NCBI RefSeq assembly: GCF_000003605.2 | Contig: NW_003121912.1 | Location: 22,618-59,205 of the forward strand | Direction of reading: 5' to 3' | From: Saccoglossus kowalevskii | Taxonomy: Eukaryota; Hemichordata; Enteropneusta; Harrimaniidae | DNA: 36,588 nucleotides | Shown: piece after piece, positions 12,620 to 34,215 of the stretch | How the letters are laid out: the number at the start of each line of letters is the position of its first letter | How positions within the stretch are numbered: position 1 is the stretch's first letter | The notes under the pieces: model-generated | The model's input: only the letters and a program-made list of their open reading frames with translations | The model's database searches: none | What the model was told of the DNA's origin: nothing | Made by a program: the position numbers and the translations under genes

Positions 12620-15429
12620 TTAACAGCTCATGATATCGGCATAGATGACTTTGTCGTCTGATTTAAACGACTTTACGTTTCCCTCACGTTCCGGCTTAAA
12701 GAGGGAAAAATCGAGATCGGCGTAAACTAGCTCCCCCGATTTCGCGAACGTCGTGAGAGGCCCCGCGTTAGTACAAGTATCGTCGTTTACCGAGCCACCA
12801 GGTTGTCCATCATCATGCGGTGAGACTAAAGCGACTGTATGGTCACTCGATGATGTGAATGACGGTTTACTTGGTTCAAACACCGTGCTATGTTCATTTT
12901 TGTCCGCGTCCCTTTCGGCGTGACGGTTGGCTCTTTCTGTCAGCTCCTGTATGTCGTGTGTTCGGCTTTCGCCTTTCTTTTTACGTTTTGCGTTTTTATT
13001 ATTTCTCCAACAAATAAGGACAGAACAGACAACAATTATCGTTAAAATGGCTCCTCCCGTAACGTATATCGATATAGAAAGAATTTGGTTATTGCCAGGC
13101 GTTGTTAGAAATACCCCTTTCGTAAAAACGGTAGTTGCACTAGCAGTTGTATTCGATGCTTCAAAATTCTTGTCAGTGAATTGGCCAGTGGCATGAAGGG
13201 TTGTTTCATAGTGGGCAAATTTCAAGATGGTCGCTGCATTGATAACCGTCACTGTGATCGGTGCCGTTGTATCAGGTGAGGTAGTCGATTCGATGTCGTC
13301 GGTCTTTTTGTAAGACGCGGCCAAGGAGACGGTCGTCGGTTTAGTAAACTTCGCGGTGATTGCTGTCGTTGCATCACGTGTAGTAGGTGGTTTGATTTTG
13401 TCGATTGTTGTTTTGTAAGGGGCGGTCAGAGAGGCAGTTTCGGGGACGAACATTGGTTTAGTCAATTTTGCAGTTACCAGTGTCGTTGTATCACGGGCAT
13501 TAGTTGGTTTTATTTTTTCGATTGTTGTTTTGTAAGGAGATCGAGTGGTCGAAGAGAACGTTTTGGAGATGGACGTTGGTTTAGTCACCTTCGCAATGAT
13601 TCGTGTCGTTGAATCAAGTGCAGTAGTTGGTTTTATTTTGTCGATTGTTGTTTTGTAAGGAGATCGAGTGGTCGAAGAGAACGTTTTGGAGATGGACGTT
13701 GGTTTAGTCACCTTTGCAATGATTCGTGTCGTTGAATCAAGTGCAGTAGTTGATTTTATTTTGTCGATTGTTGTTTTGTAAGGAGATCGAGTGGTCGAAG
13801 AGAACGTTTTGGAGATGGACGTTGGTTTAGTCACCTTCGCAATGATTCGTGTCGTTGAATCAAGTGCAGTAGTTGGTTTTATTTTGTCGATTGTTGTTTT
13901 GTAAGGAGATCGAGTGGTCGAAGAGAACGTTTTGGAGATGGACGTTGGTTTAGTCACCTTCGCAATGATTCGTGTCGTTGAATCAAGTGCAGTAGTTGAT
14001 TTTATTTTGTCGATTGTTGTTTTATAAGGAGATCGAGTGGTCAAAGAGAACGTTTTGGAGATGGACGTTGGTTTAGTCACCTTCGCAATGATTCGTGTCG
14101 TTGAATCAAGTGCAGTAGTTGGTTTTAGTTTGTCGATTGTTGTTTTATAAGGGATGGTCAGAGAGGCAGTTTTCGAGATTAACGTTGGTTTAGTCACCCT
14201 CGCGGTTATCAGTGTCGTTGTATCACGGGTAGTAGTTGGTTTTATATCGTCGATTGTTGTTTTATAAGGGGCGGTCAGACTGGCAGTTATGGAGACGGGC
14301 ATTGGTTTAGTAACCGTCACGGTGATTGACGTCGTTGTATCAATGACAGTAGAAGGTTCGACATCGTTCATCGTTGTTTCTTCTTTCTCAGGGATTTCTT
14401 CAACTTGTATCGGTCCAACTGTGCATTGTCTTTCAATTAACACAGCGGGGCCGGTCATAACACACGTAATGTTGATGTCATTATCATGGGATGACAATAT
14501 CCATGTGTCGCGTATTTCAGGAACATTATCATTAACACGTGTTCCATTCCTAATCACATCTCCTTTTCTCCACGTCAAGTCGATAGGGGCATTACTTTTC
14601 CCAGATTGACACGCCGTGGTGATGACGTCACCAGGATAATACACCTGATTAGTTGGATTAAGGGAGGTACATTTAGGGTATGTCTTTTTTGGTGGGTAAA
14701 TAACTGAGAGTTTGGCTTTTGACGACTGCAACATCTTTGTTTTGTCCTCCTTGTCGCGAACAACACAGCTATATTCGCCAGCATCCTTACGCGTAACCTT
14801 GCGAATTGTCAATCTATACTTGGTCGTACCAGACTCCGAATTAACATCCCTTGTAACATTGTAACGCGATAGATATTTCCGTTTTATCCCCCCATCTATT
14901 GTTATTGCAATATTCTTCAAGTTCAATCTATAGTATACGTATCGTTGTTGTAATTTTTAATCTCGCAGGTCATGCTGCAATTACCATGCTTCACTACAGT
15001 GTTTCCAACAGGGTGGCCCGTGAATGTGATCACTGTAAGCTTTCCAGTTTTTGATTTGTAATTAATCTGTGTTTCCCCATCATAATACAGAAAACAAATA
15101 TATGAACCGCCGTCTGTTTCTGCTACGTTAGCAATATACAGAGTGCCCGTGATACTACCTTGGCTTGGCTGTGATTCATTCTCTCTGATTGTAGATATTC
15201 CATACTTGTCGTTGGCTTCCTTCAAAAACATTCCCGCATTCTTTTCCCAGTATACGTCATATTGATCAACATATTTATATCTTAAGTCTTCTACTCGGCA
15301 TGTCATGGTGATGTTCGTATTGAGAAGGACAGTTGTATCACTGGGTTCTATAATGAATTGATCCTGATATGATGATTGGATGAGAGATAGTAGAACAATT
15401 GTGACGCTCACGAATATGTTCATTTTCAT
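12620..15429 (-). CDS. Ig-superfamily membrane receptor with Thr-rich repeat stalk and two ITIMs (one frameshift)
   Basis: A type I membrane protein, about 936 residues if one missing base is allowed for. The chosen start at 15429 opens a good signal peptide (MKMNIFVSVTIVLLSLIQ). An in-frame ATG at 15525 is upstream but lies within about 20 bases of a TATA-like box. Ig domain 1 has Cys44, Trp61, and DGGSYIC with Cys112. Ig domain 2 has Cys155 and DAGEYSC with Cys222. Ig domain 3 has Cys274, Trp287 and Cys323, with extra Cys254 and Cys336. A Thr/Ser-rich repeat stalk (about 354-740) leads to a membrane segment (about 785-808), a basic KRKKK stop-transfer and a 128-residue tail. The tail carries ELVYADL and KVIYADI, both fitting the ITIM consensus [SIVL]xYxx[IVL], with tyrosines 27 residues apart (codons at 12722-12724 and 12641-12643). 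By family knowledge ITIMs recruit SH2 phosphatases, so an inhibitory receptor is inferred. A one-base deletion near 14924-14927 breaks the frame at the Ig2 tryptophan. It may be a null allele, a young pseudogene or a sequence error. Confidence 0.82.
13215..14385 (-). repeat. in-frame minisatellite encoding the 41-residue stalk repeat
   Basis: About ten units encode the Thr/Ser-rich stalk of the Ig receptor. The five central copies (13531-14145) are nearly identical with an exact 123-bp period, so the frame is kept. One unit runs PYKTTIDKIK, PTTALDSTTR, IIAKVTKPTS, ISKTFSSTTRS, and 17 of 41 residues are Ser or Thr. The outer units are shorter and more diverged. Unit variants alternate KIKP and KIKS, which points to duplication of a two-unit, 246-bp block. 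Such stalks are usually O-glycosylated and extended. The very low divergence implies recent expansion and probable length polymorphism. Confidence 0.92.
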
Positions 15430-27020: not shown

Positions 27021-28928
27021 TCAAATCATGTTTATGTTTGTGAACTTCAAAGCCGCGTCAAGTTTTTTCCAAAACAACTTTTGTACTTGTTTATCCTCAC
27101 TCCAGATTATATGGTTACCATTTCTCATCAAATATTGTAATAATCCAGTCATTTTAGTGGCTGTAATGTTTTCTTTCAGAACAATCACAGCTTGATTTCG
27201 ATGCTCATCGAACATTCTTTGCCGGACCATCTCAAGTTCAAAATAACACCATCTCAAGTTCAAAATAACACCATCTCAAGTTCAAAATAACACCATCTCA
27301 AGTTCAAAATAACACCATCTCAAGTTCAAAATAACACCATCTCAAGTTCAAAATAACACCATCTCAAGTTCAAAATAACACCATCTCAAGTTCAAAATAA
27401 CACCACTCGCTTTCAACAAAACTGTTCGTAACAATGAAAACCGTTTTACGACTCCTTTCTATAGATCTGAGAATATTGTCAGAAATATGGTCACCGATCA
27501 TAAAATCTCGGAAATCTAGACAAAGTTTATAATTATAGGGTGGGTTTTCCAGTTTTGCCTGAATTGTATCGTATACCCAATCCTCATCTTTGCTTGAGTG
27601 GGAGATGAATGCATCAAACTGATAGTCAAGTTCCTCCACATTAATGGGCTGATAACCACCGATACGGAGTTTACACAAAAATATACCATATCTGCAAAAA
27701 CGTGAAACATAACAATTAAAACAAGACACACTACAATTAAAACATCTTATTGCAGAATCTGAGCTATATGCTCCAGTTTCCTTTTTTCTTTCATGTGAAT
27801 ACGTAAATCAAGCTATATCATTTTTGATACGATTGTTCACTAGTGTTTCTATGCAAATTATATATGTTTCATTATATAGAGCAACGTTCTTACCTGATCC
27901 GCCATCTGTTTAAAACTAGGACTATTGTTAAACTGAGGATAAACAACGTTACAATGGAAGCAGCAGTAACCACAATAACGGGGAAACCACACTGCAATTT
28001 GTCCGGATCAAATTGTCGAATATTTTGTCCGTTGGAGCAATTTATTTACATTGTCAATGTCTTGTATGACATCTGTGACAGTGTCTATCCAGCGCCGAAA
28101 CCAAATGAGATCACATCCACAGTCAAAAGGGTTTCCATATAAATGAAGTTTTTTCAAAGAGGATAACTTGTGTAGGCCTACGTCTTGTGAGATCGATGTT
28201 AATTTGTTGTAAGCAAAACTCAAATCTGTAATATTTGTAGATCCATTGAACATATTGTCTGGAAGCTTTATAAGACCATTGTAATGCAAGAAAACTCTCT
28301 TTAAGTCTGGCATGTTGTTAAAGATGGAATCTGGTATTGATGTTAGTTCATTGTTGTTGAGTAAAATGTTGACAAGTTTTCTATTATTCGAAAACGCTGT
28401 TGCAGGAAGAATTTCCAAATTGATATTTCGGCTGTTAAAATCTTTCAAAGCTGACAATGGTCTCAACCACTCACTGCGGAAATACGATGCCAACCCAGCA
28501 TGGTTGAAACCAATGCATAACCTAGTTAGTCTGCCTAGTCCTGCGAACGCATTAGGGTGTATATCATATCCGACCAGTCGGTTATTATTTAGGTAAAGAT
28601 ACCGCAATTGTTTCAGACGTGAAAACGTTCCCGCTTCTACCCTGGAAATGAGGTTCCATTTGAGGTCGAGGCTAGTTGAGTCTGATGGTATTTCGTCCAC
28701 GATTTGTTTGACCTGAGAAGGCGATATGATTCCTCTGTAACAACATCCAACTTTCCAGTACGGAAATATGTCTTGTATTGCCCTCGACCCGCACAGATTA
28801 CAGTGACATAATGTTGGACAGGTCACATTTACCGTGTCAGCTTCTACGCATATTATTGAAGTAGCAGTGAATATCTGGGCGCAGAATACACCAAAAAATA
28901 CACTGAGGCGTGTGGTTAACACCATCAT
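27021..28928 (-). pseudogene. Toll-like receptor B, tandem paralogue broken by two duplications
   Basis: Same plan as TLR-A. Exon 1 (28928-27894) has a signal peptide (MMVLTTRLSVFFGVFC), an LRRNT (VTCPTLCHCNLCG), about seven LRRs and an LRRCT (DCGCDLIWFRRW). A 202-bp intron (27893-27692, AG|GTAAGA to TTTTTGCAG|A) splits the same Arg codon of RWRIRYGIF. Exon 2 (27691-27021) has TIR boxes FDAFISHSSKDEDW, LCLDFRDFMIGD and LFWKKLDAAL. Lesion 1 is a tandem duplication of AAAT (28040-28047) just before the third LRRCT cysteine. It shifts the frame to a stop near 28008. In the other frame the rest of the LRRCT and the membrane segment (PVIVVTAASIVTLFILSLTI) remain readable. Lesion 2 is a 22-bp unit present 8 times in the TIR exon, adding 154 bp (not a multiple of 3). 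As written it could yield at most a truncated ectodomain without a membrane anchor. The coding sequence is otherwise well kept, so the damage looks recent. An assembly artefact is possible at lesion 2. Confidence 0.9.
27227..27402 (-). repeat. 22-bp tandem repeat, 8 copies, inside TLR-B TIR exon
   Basis: Eight exact copies of a 22-bp unit (plus strand CCATCTCAAG then TTCAAAATAACA), which encodes the WCYFELEM segment of the TIR domain. TLR-A has one copy at the matching place. Seven extra copies add 154 bases and put a stop codon in the frame. The copies are identical, which implies very recent expansion or an assembly or sequencing problem. Confidence 0.97.
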
Positions 28929-33176: not shown

Positions 33177-34215
33177 CAGCTATTTTGAATACATGTATAT
33201 ATATATATATATATGATGATGTATAATATATATACATGATGTATAACGAATATATACAATTTGAATATAATCAGTCAAAGCATTTAAGATATATGGGTCT
33301 AGAAGCCCAATCAATAAAACAAAATGGCCGCCAGTCAGCCATTTTGAATCCATTCTGAAAAATAAAATGACGTGCATCAGGAACCTGTAATGTTTAATGT
33401 ATGTTATAAGTTTTAACAAAATCCATTCATTAATGCAAGAAATGCTTGATATTTGATGATTTTTTTAGCACAAAAATAGCCACCATTTGGCCACTTTGAA
33501 ATGGATCGTCAAACCAATATATCCGTATATCTATGACATGTTGTATAATAAATATTTAAAATTTGAACATAATCAGTCAATTTGAAAACAGGTCAAACAT
33601 ATGGGGCTGAAAACCCATTCATTTAAAAAAAATGGCCGCCAGACAGCCATTTGATCTGAAAAATAAAATGATGTGCACCAGGGACCCGTAATGTTTAATG
33701 TATGTACCAAGTTTGAACGAAATCCATCCATAAATGCCAGAAATGCTTGATTTTTGATGATTTTTTAGCACAAAAATGACCGCCATTCGGCCATTTTGAA
33801 TAGGATCGTCAAACCAATATATCTGTCTATCTATGACATGATGTATAATGAATATTTAAAATTTGAACATAATCAGTGAAAGCAAGTCAGACAAATGGCA
33901 CGAGAACCGCATTCATTAAAAAACAAAATCCTATCTGAAAAACAAAATAATGTGCATCAAGGTCCTCTAATGTATATACCAATTTTGAACAAAATCCATC
34001 TGTAAACAGCCGAAAAATGCACAAAAATGACCGCCATTCGGCTATCTTGAATCAGATCGTGAAACAAATTGACGTGCATATGTATAATATCATGTATGAT
34101 GTATGTGTGAAGTTTGATTGTGATTGGTCAAGGCATTTCTGAGATACAGGTCCGGACGCAAGGACGCACGCACGGAGGTCAAAACATAAGTCTCTGCTTT
34201 CGCACTGCGTTCGAA
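33177..34215. repeat. tandem array of about 300-bp units, 3 full copies plus a partial
   Basis: A landmark string (ATGTATAAT, GAATATTTAAAATTTGAACA, TAATCAGT) recurs near 33237, 33538 and 33838, a period of about 300 bases. Each unit also carries AAAATGGCCGCCAG, AATGTTTAATGTATG, AATCCATC, AATGCTTGAT and CATTTTGAAT. The last, partial unit ends in GTCAAGGCATTTCTGAGATAC and a GGACGCAAGGACGCACGCAC tail, a type of ending common in repeats of marine invertebrates. The copies are diverged, so the array is older than the MITE pair. A TA microsatellite at 33195-33213 lies at its start. Confidence 0.85.

Follow-up and report, generated by a model that had tools for sequence, protein, structure and literature searches.

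Does a gene of the hemichordate Saccoglossus kowalevskii encode an inhibitory Ig receptor, and if so, which signals would it restrain? The question is raised by a stretch of 36,588 nucleotides (hereafter the window), in which a first-pass annotation had recognized an Ig receptor with paired tyrosine motifs beside two Toll-like receptor (TLR) units. Contigs and loci are cited below by our own labels (C and L); the window lies on C1466.

Anatomy of the Ig receptor gene

The gene occupies the minus strand of the window, from a Met start at 15429 to a stop at 12620, and its parts follow in the order leader, three Ig domains, Thr-rich repeat stalk, single membrane helix, and a tail with LVYADL and VIYADI (Table 1). 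It is read in two frames. The first contains the Met, the hydrophobic leader, Ig domain 1 and the initial part of Ig domain 2, and the second contains the remaining Ig domain 2, Ig domain 3, the stalk, the membrane segment and the tail. In Pfam scans, the second frame scores 28.1 bits for Ig_2 against a cut-off of 27, with its best stretch in Ig domain 3, and 29.3 bits for Ig_3, slightly below the cut-off of 30, with its best stretch in Ig domain 2. In the latter domain, this stretch covers residues 38-67 of the second frame, and the first half and the join were assigned by eye. The leader, three Ig domains, Thr/Ser stalk and one membrane segment that had been claimed for the gene are thus confirmed by the frames, Pfam and hydropathy, the leader by hydropathy only. 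Mean hydropathy of the membrane segment is 2.47 across 19 residues. The longest stop-free frame is 778 aa, as compared with 192 aa across 50 base-shuffled windows, and the gene is confirmed as real. Single-sequence structure prediction gave Ig domains 1 and 3 a mean pLDDT of only 37.7 and 37.8, respectively.

The stalk consists of 27% Thr and 10% Ser. Five of its units, each of 41 residues, differ at 0-5 positions per 123 bases in all ten pairwise comparisons, and this near-identity suggests that they were duplicated in tandem recently.

In the tail, the tyrosines of LVYADL and VIYADI are indeed 27 residues apart, as had been stated for ELVYADL and KVIYADI. The strict ITIM pattern is [S/I/V/L]xYxx[I/V/L], and both motifs satisfy it beyond the single membrane segment. 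When the tail was shuffled, at least two strict ITIMs arose in 130 of 200,000 trials.

Table 1. Features of the Ig receptor gene, in window positions
Feature	Position	Strand	Basis
Start codon and putative signal-peptide-like leader, MKMNIFVSVTIVLLSLIQSSY	15367..15429	-	Hydropathy peak only
Ig domain 1	15031..15357	-	Pfam Ig_3 (E 3e-10), V-set (E 1.2e-6)
Ig domain 2, divided by frame change	14699..15021	-	Second half: Pfam Ig_3
Reading-frame overlap (one frame change)	14923..14956	-	Two overlapping ORFs
Ig domain 3, C2-like family domain ending CTVGPIQV	14402..14686	-	Pfam Ig_2 (28.1 bits) and family alignment
Thr/Ser-rich stalk, 437 aa, units of 35-41 aa	13091..14401	-	Repeat and composition analysis
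Transmembrane segment, single	13013..13075	-	Hydropathy 2.41 in a 21-residue window
Cytoplasmic tail, 130 aa	12623..13012	-	Reading frame
ITIM 1, LVYADL	12713..12730	-	Motif pattern and paralogue comparison
ITIM 2, VIYADI, tyrosine close to C-terminus	12632..12649	-	Motif pattern and paralogue comparison

The two frames need an explanation, and the first-pass annotation, which spoke of joined frames, implied a frame change without stating one. Because both halves of the divided Ig domain 2 resemble, by eye, the corresponding halves of Ig domain 2 in paralogues, a single frame change inside this domain is the simplest reading. A run of five A's (A5) lies beside it. The change in this copy may reflect a fault of the assembly, an allelic difference or a genuine loss of function. 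If it truly inactivates the gene, in the individual or in the species, the gene would be a damaged copy. This is what two overlapping frames would suggest, and such damage would have company: two paralogues (L025 and L038) have lost their tails, and the second TLR of the window is broken too. However, the remaining 778-codon frame is open and retains both ITIMs, and a change that adjoins a homopolymer such as the A5 run is a common type of sequencing error. We therefore consider an inactive copy somewhat unlikely.

Related genes and their tails

We searched an assembly of 572 Mb in 4830 contigs for relatives. With the membrane segment and tail as query, only one other place was found, on C1466 at 92 kb past the window's end, and the match was weak (E 0.05). 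This locus, L024 (also labelled L003), reads as one frame without interruption and has Ig domains (Pfam recognizes two stretches, the family alignment a third), a membrane segment and the tail LVYAEL...VSYAELKRC. Its protein as query gave 21 matches, including L024 itself and the window gene (L030). The protein of another paralogue, L026, gave 47 matches on 12 contigs: 14 on C1466, 7 on C127, 6 on C3169, 4 on C3945, 3 each on C2456, C3769 and C1345, 2 each on C3688 and C2784, and 1 each on C1613, C1866 and C3325. Two of these contigs appear to hold different genes and were left out. All seven C127 matches lie within one 2918-aa open frame (C127:40220-48622, minus strand), which probably encodes a long Ig protein of another kind. 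The C3325 matches (one from the L026 search and six of the 21 from the L024 search) lie in short frames. The family count is then 39 matches on 10 contigs; since counts are of six-frame matches, they are lower bounds.

Among these 39 matches, 34 are within open frames of at least 400 residues, and the other 5 are in frames of 138 to 320 residues. Of the 34 long frames, two exceed 6000 residues, probably owing to runs of N, as at L034. A stop codon is spanned by 3 of the 47 L026 matches. Because the matches sit in long open frames, the family's genes appear to be intronless.

Local identity between the window gene and its paralogues over the Ig regions is 25-37%, e.g., 28/92 and 45/136 residues with L024, 26/75 and 53/142 with L026, and 33/106 and 32/130 with L040. 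Some copies are much closer to each other. The ectodomains of L025 and L024 agree at 175 of 290 aligned residues, but in L025 a stop shortens the tail, which contains no ITIM. L038 duplicates the L040 ectodomain, with 85-97% identity per 100-base block over nine blocks; past these blocks, its similarity to L040 fades, and neither a membrane segment nor an ITIM tail was recognized there. Given dN/dS values of about 0.42 for L038/L040 and about 0.39 for L024/L025, the ectodomains of both pairs look constrained. Past 200 kb, C1466 was read around single matches only. Inside the Ig cluster, this contig also carries a long frame in which Roc and COR-A domains occur along with weak LRR matches (L021:5093-8272, i.e., C1466:175093-178272, plus strand). 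A frame with a CARD_2 domain (L016:40-558, i.e., C1466:120040-120558, plus strand; E 6e-11) lies on the contig too.

The first set of tails came from 15 proteins: the window gene, 13 of the 21 L024-search matches and a frame at C1466:184287-185771. L034, which runs into N, and the six C3325 matches were left out. A clear membrane segment is present in 14 of the 15, the exception being L038. Four of these 14 tails (those of the window gene, L024, L026 and L040) have a C-terminal tandem module that we describe as [SIVLM]xYA[DEQ][LIV], then 12-30 residues, then the motif again near the C-terminus. We defined this pattern with the tails already in view, and shuffled tails produced it in 0 of 280,000 cases. 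With the generic strict ITIM, at least two occur in 6 of the 14 members, and 8 have no such pair. In 20,000 shuffled sets, four members with at least two strict ITIMs were reached twice, and five or six were never reached. It is important to consider that the window gene (by the way it was found) and L024 (by the tail search) were picked through their tails. Without these two, 4 of 12 members have at least two strict ITIMs, two of them with the module. Conservation of the motif in homologues exceeds chance. According to the shuffles, composition does not account for the motif; they say nothing on how many times it originated, because related sequences share ancestry.

The four core members resemble each other in further respects. 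Their tyrosine spacings are 27 in the window gene and 22, 28 and 25 in the other three, the last tyrosine sits at the extreme end of the tail, and L, Y, A and L are invariant in the first motif, as are V, Y and A in the second. Ala occupies pY+1 in all 10 of their strict ITIMs. L028 and L036 are weaker cases, with two strict motifs each that lack Ala at this position. The tails of these two genes (at 96 kb and 116 kb of C2456, respectively) have 11 tyrosines each, L036 being read to the end of its locus, short of a stop, and possibly they represent a third type of tail.

Eight further tails, on C1345, C3769, C1466, C3945, C3169 and C3688, were read after the L026 search. The one at 218 kb of C1345 has LAYAEI, LTYAEL and a C-terminal TIYAEV, which fails the strict pattern at -2. 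At 335 kb of C3769, LTYADL is followed by TLYTKV, and at 442 kb of C1466, LVYADL is followed by TEYATI; both tails thus have one strict ITIM. In the 20 tails tallied (the 14 and six of the later eight), Ala occupies pY+1 in 14 of 19 strict ITIMs, and only five tails have at least two strict ITIMs with this Ala. Apart from these five and L028/L036, the tails tallied have one strict ITIM or none. The C1345 tail as query gave one further, weak candidate (C1345:189292; E 0.2, 55% over 29 residues). Paralogues without the tail motifs had been named in advance as evidence against an inhibitory receptor, and the outcome is divided: three paralogues (L024, L026 and L040) keep both motifs, and others have one, an ITAM-like motif or none. 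That the four ITIM genes form one clade was not borne out by a tree of Ig domain 3, where the ITIM label showed no stronger clustering than it did after shuffling (all 500 of 500 shuffles were as low); this tree is poorly supported, with 1 of 11 inner branches starred.

A different motif terminates the tails read from C3945 (at 397 kb and 403 kb), C3169 (381 kb and 344 kb) and C3688 (302 kb). All five end in an ITAM-like YxxL-x7-YxxL, which was found by script in three and by eye in two. The ITAM consensus is YxxL/I-x(6-8)-YxxL/I, and all five satisfy it. The two C3945 tails are 71% alike and the two C3169 tails 76%; since each pair consists of close relatives, we count about three independent cases. 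When the three tails found by script were shuffled, the motif arose in 0.8, 0.4 and 0.2%. No match to Pfam's ITAM family (PF02189) was found in the five tails at E up to 1, this profile being so short that filtering is possible. The ITAM-like motif is absent from all 15 proteins first read. A C3169 tail as query found 7 copies, exclusively on C3169, that are 69-100% identical. Long-frame Ig receptor genes with such tails are L049 and L053 (C3169), L046 and L052 (C3945) and L051 (C3688), and an upstream YINM motif is also seen in the C3169 and C3688 tails read.

Candidate signalling partners and alternative explanations

A Pfam search of the genome for SH2 domains gave 25 matches, of which three form a group at the end of C208. 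The joined C208 exons match SHP2 (PTPN11) among solved structures with E 3.4e-89 over 147 residues, and PTPN6/SHP1 is well behind (E 5e-66). C208 ends before any phosphatase domain, and SHP2 is known here from its SH2 exons; 47 phosphatase matches are on other contigs. On C2592, there is an SH2 exon whose best match is Syk (E 2e-17), followed by ZAP-70 (3e-15) and SHP2 (9e-15). With these two scoring closely behind, the exon is not an established Syk orthologue, and Shark-type kinases are an alternative. Among the kinase matches listed, none is on C2592, and a second SH2 exon (L055) reads into stops. SH2 and kinase matches occur together on C1469, C2385, C93 and C1492, among the matches listed. 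Given the tandem SH2 exons of SHP2 and the Syk-like SH2 exon, parts of a SHP2/Syk-like pathway exist in this genome, and they may act on the family's tails.

The tails can be compared with published rules for the docking of phosphatases. Ala at pY+1 is described as conserved in the ITIMs of BTLA, Siglecs and SIRP-alpha and as favouring SHP1 docking (PMC8631942). PECAM1, which prefers SHP2, has Thr at this position (PMC8631942), so Ala at pY+1 is no mark of SHP2 as such. The only such gene that we found is SHP2-like, while the Ala result of that paper concerns SHP1. Doubly phosphorylated peptides are reported to be the strongest activators of SHP2, and their spacing matters (PMC10231330). In PD-1, Y223 and Y248 are 25 apart (PMC7078208), a distance to be set beside 27, 22, 28 and 25 in the core members.

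The inhibitory-receptor layout proposed in the first-pass annotation is supported by a tandem ITIM that is kept in paralogues with diverged Ig domains and by SHP2-type SH2 exons in the genome. Our favoured explanation, which we consider probable, is that the window gene encodes an inhibitory receptor of the SHP2 type and belongs to a family in which activating and inhibitory members are mixed. Its product would be a type I surface receptor from a large multi-Ig family with clustered genes that appear to lack introns; should the frame change prove genuine, the gene would have encoded this receptor until very recently. Once the Ig domains meet a ligand, a Src-type kinase would phosphorylate both tail tyrosines, and the doubly phosphorylated LxYADL...VxYADI pair would dock the tandem SH2 domains of the SHP2 orthologue, which could then damp nearby tyrosine-kinase signalling. 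Relatives with ITAM-like tails on other contigs would drive the opposite, Syk/Shark-type signal. With ITIM members and such oppositely signalling relatives, the family could set a threshold between inhibition and activation. From the sequences we infer surface expression and its cell type, phosphorylation, SHP2 binding, inhibition and the ligand.

PECAM1 and SIRP-alpha recruit SHP2 in non-immune cells. It is therefore conceivable that the window gene is an adhesion or growth-factor type of receptor whose tandem motif recruits SHP2 in such cells and promotes signalling. Among solved structures, the Ig domain 3 profile matches SYG-2 and Robo2 best, its further matches including neurofascin, DSCAM and LAR-type proteins, and a single piece of Ig domains 2-3 best matches carcinoembryonic antigen. 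However, the same profile's matches include Fc receptor-like 5 (third, E 1e-13), SIRP-type proteins and CD22, and a large family whose genes are clustered, whose ectodomains diverge, and in which some tails are lost and some relatives are ITAM-like would be more typical of immune or recognition receptors. On this evidence, we regard an adhesion-type receptor as unlikely.

We find it quite improbable that the tyrosine motifs are endocytic sorting signals with an incidental likeness to ITIMs. YxxPhi is the pattern of such signals, and YADL, YAEL and YADI all fit it, but sorting signals require no hydrophobic residue at -2, Ala at +1, pairing, spacing or C-terminal place, all of which the four core members keep.

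The remaining explanation concerns the TLRs. Two TLR units, with LRR and TIR matches, are present in the window on the strand of the Ig receptor, as had been claimed, although the TIR exon of the second is broken. At window 27226-27405 (minus strand), this exon is interrupted by a tandem array of 8.2 exact copies of a 22-bp unit from its own coding sequence; the array breaks the frame, and the remaining TIR resumes past it. A tandem repeat of 300 bp (2.2 copies, 81% matches) is found elsewhere, at window 33226-33881. Of 23 TIR matches in the genome, 2 are on C1466, both in the window, 4 are on C999 and 3 on C4557, and the rest are scattered. The neighbourhood was seen in part: about half of the first 200 kb of C1466 is N, as are the window's flanks (C1466:1-22617 and 59206-118924). 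The shared orientation of three adjacent genes is weak evidence of a link, and the proposed brake on innate signalling through these TLRs found no support, since TIR and family matches seldom share contigs. In view of this census, we set aside as barely credible a dedicated brake on the two TLRs, even though the gene is on their strand and about 3.6 kb from the first TIR exon: only 2 of 23 TIR matches are on C1466, the other nine of the ten family contigs have no TIR match, and C999 and C4557, which are richest in them, have no family match.

Comparison with known receptor systems

Several invertebrate Ig receptors invite comparison with the family. The Alr genes of Hydractinia form an IgSF family of 41 members (PMC11999971), and candidate Alr genes carry ITIM- and ITAM-type motifs (PMC12065747), so both families are invertebrate IgSF families with both types of motif. 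The likeness to Alr is one of description, while the single-frame genes and the tandem ITIM with Ala at pY+1 were measured from the sequences of the present family. The FcoR proteins of Botryllus, with 53 loci so far, are type I receptors, 520-610 aa in length, that combine Ig domains with long tails bearing ITIM or hemITAM motifs (PMC12065747). They resemble the present family as type I Ig receptors with ITIM-bearing tails. In contrast, FcoR proteins are described as having a sushi domain between V-type and C2-type Ig domains and as being alternatively spliced, while the genes here are single frames. Pfam scans found no sushi domain in two pieces of the window gene (E up to 1) or in seven paralogues (E up to 0.01), and we therefore reject membership in the FcoR family. 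In oyster, CgIgIT2 has five Ig domains and a tail ITAM (PMC11999971), and CgSiglec-1 has two I-set domains and restrains apoptosis and phagocytosis (PMC5877582). Both are likewise invertebrate Ig receptors; however, the motif of CgIgIT2 is activating, and the consulted text of these sources describes a tandem ITIM for neither protein.

Among vertebrate proteins, BTLA, PD-1, Siglecs and SIRP-alpha share with the window gene an Ig ectodomain, one membrane helix and paired tyrosine motifs. Similarity in sequence to the vertebrate SHP-recruiting ITIM receptors is only at the generic Ig level, and the likeness is likely convergent or separately assembled.

Among the titles and abstracts listed in our searches of the literature, which included few subscription papers, we found no intronless invertebrate ITIM/ITAM family, and the present one may already be annotated under another name. 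The opposition of ITIM and ITAM in invertebrate Ig families has been described in the allorecognition systems of Hydractinia and Botryllus (PMC12065747). We tentatively suggest, as a broader possibility, that an invertebrate lineage may have independently built a germline-encoded, intronless paired-receptor system. It would consist of SHP2-type tandem-ITIM and Syk-type ITAM receptors in separate arrays of dozens of genes, with tail-less copies beside ITIM copies (L024/L025 and L040/L038), and could resemble KIR/LILR or Siglec receptors in sensing self/non-self or microbes. With a further family that has both types of tail, simple single-frame genes, and SHP2 and Syk-like partners that can be identified, how often and why animals converge on a balance between phosphatase- and kinase-coupled receptors would become directly testable, using genes that are short and easily cloned.
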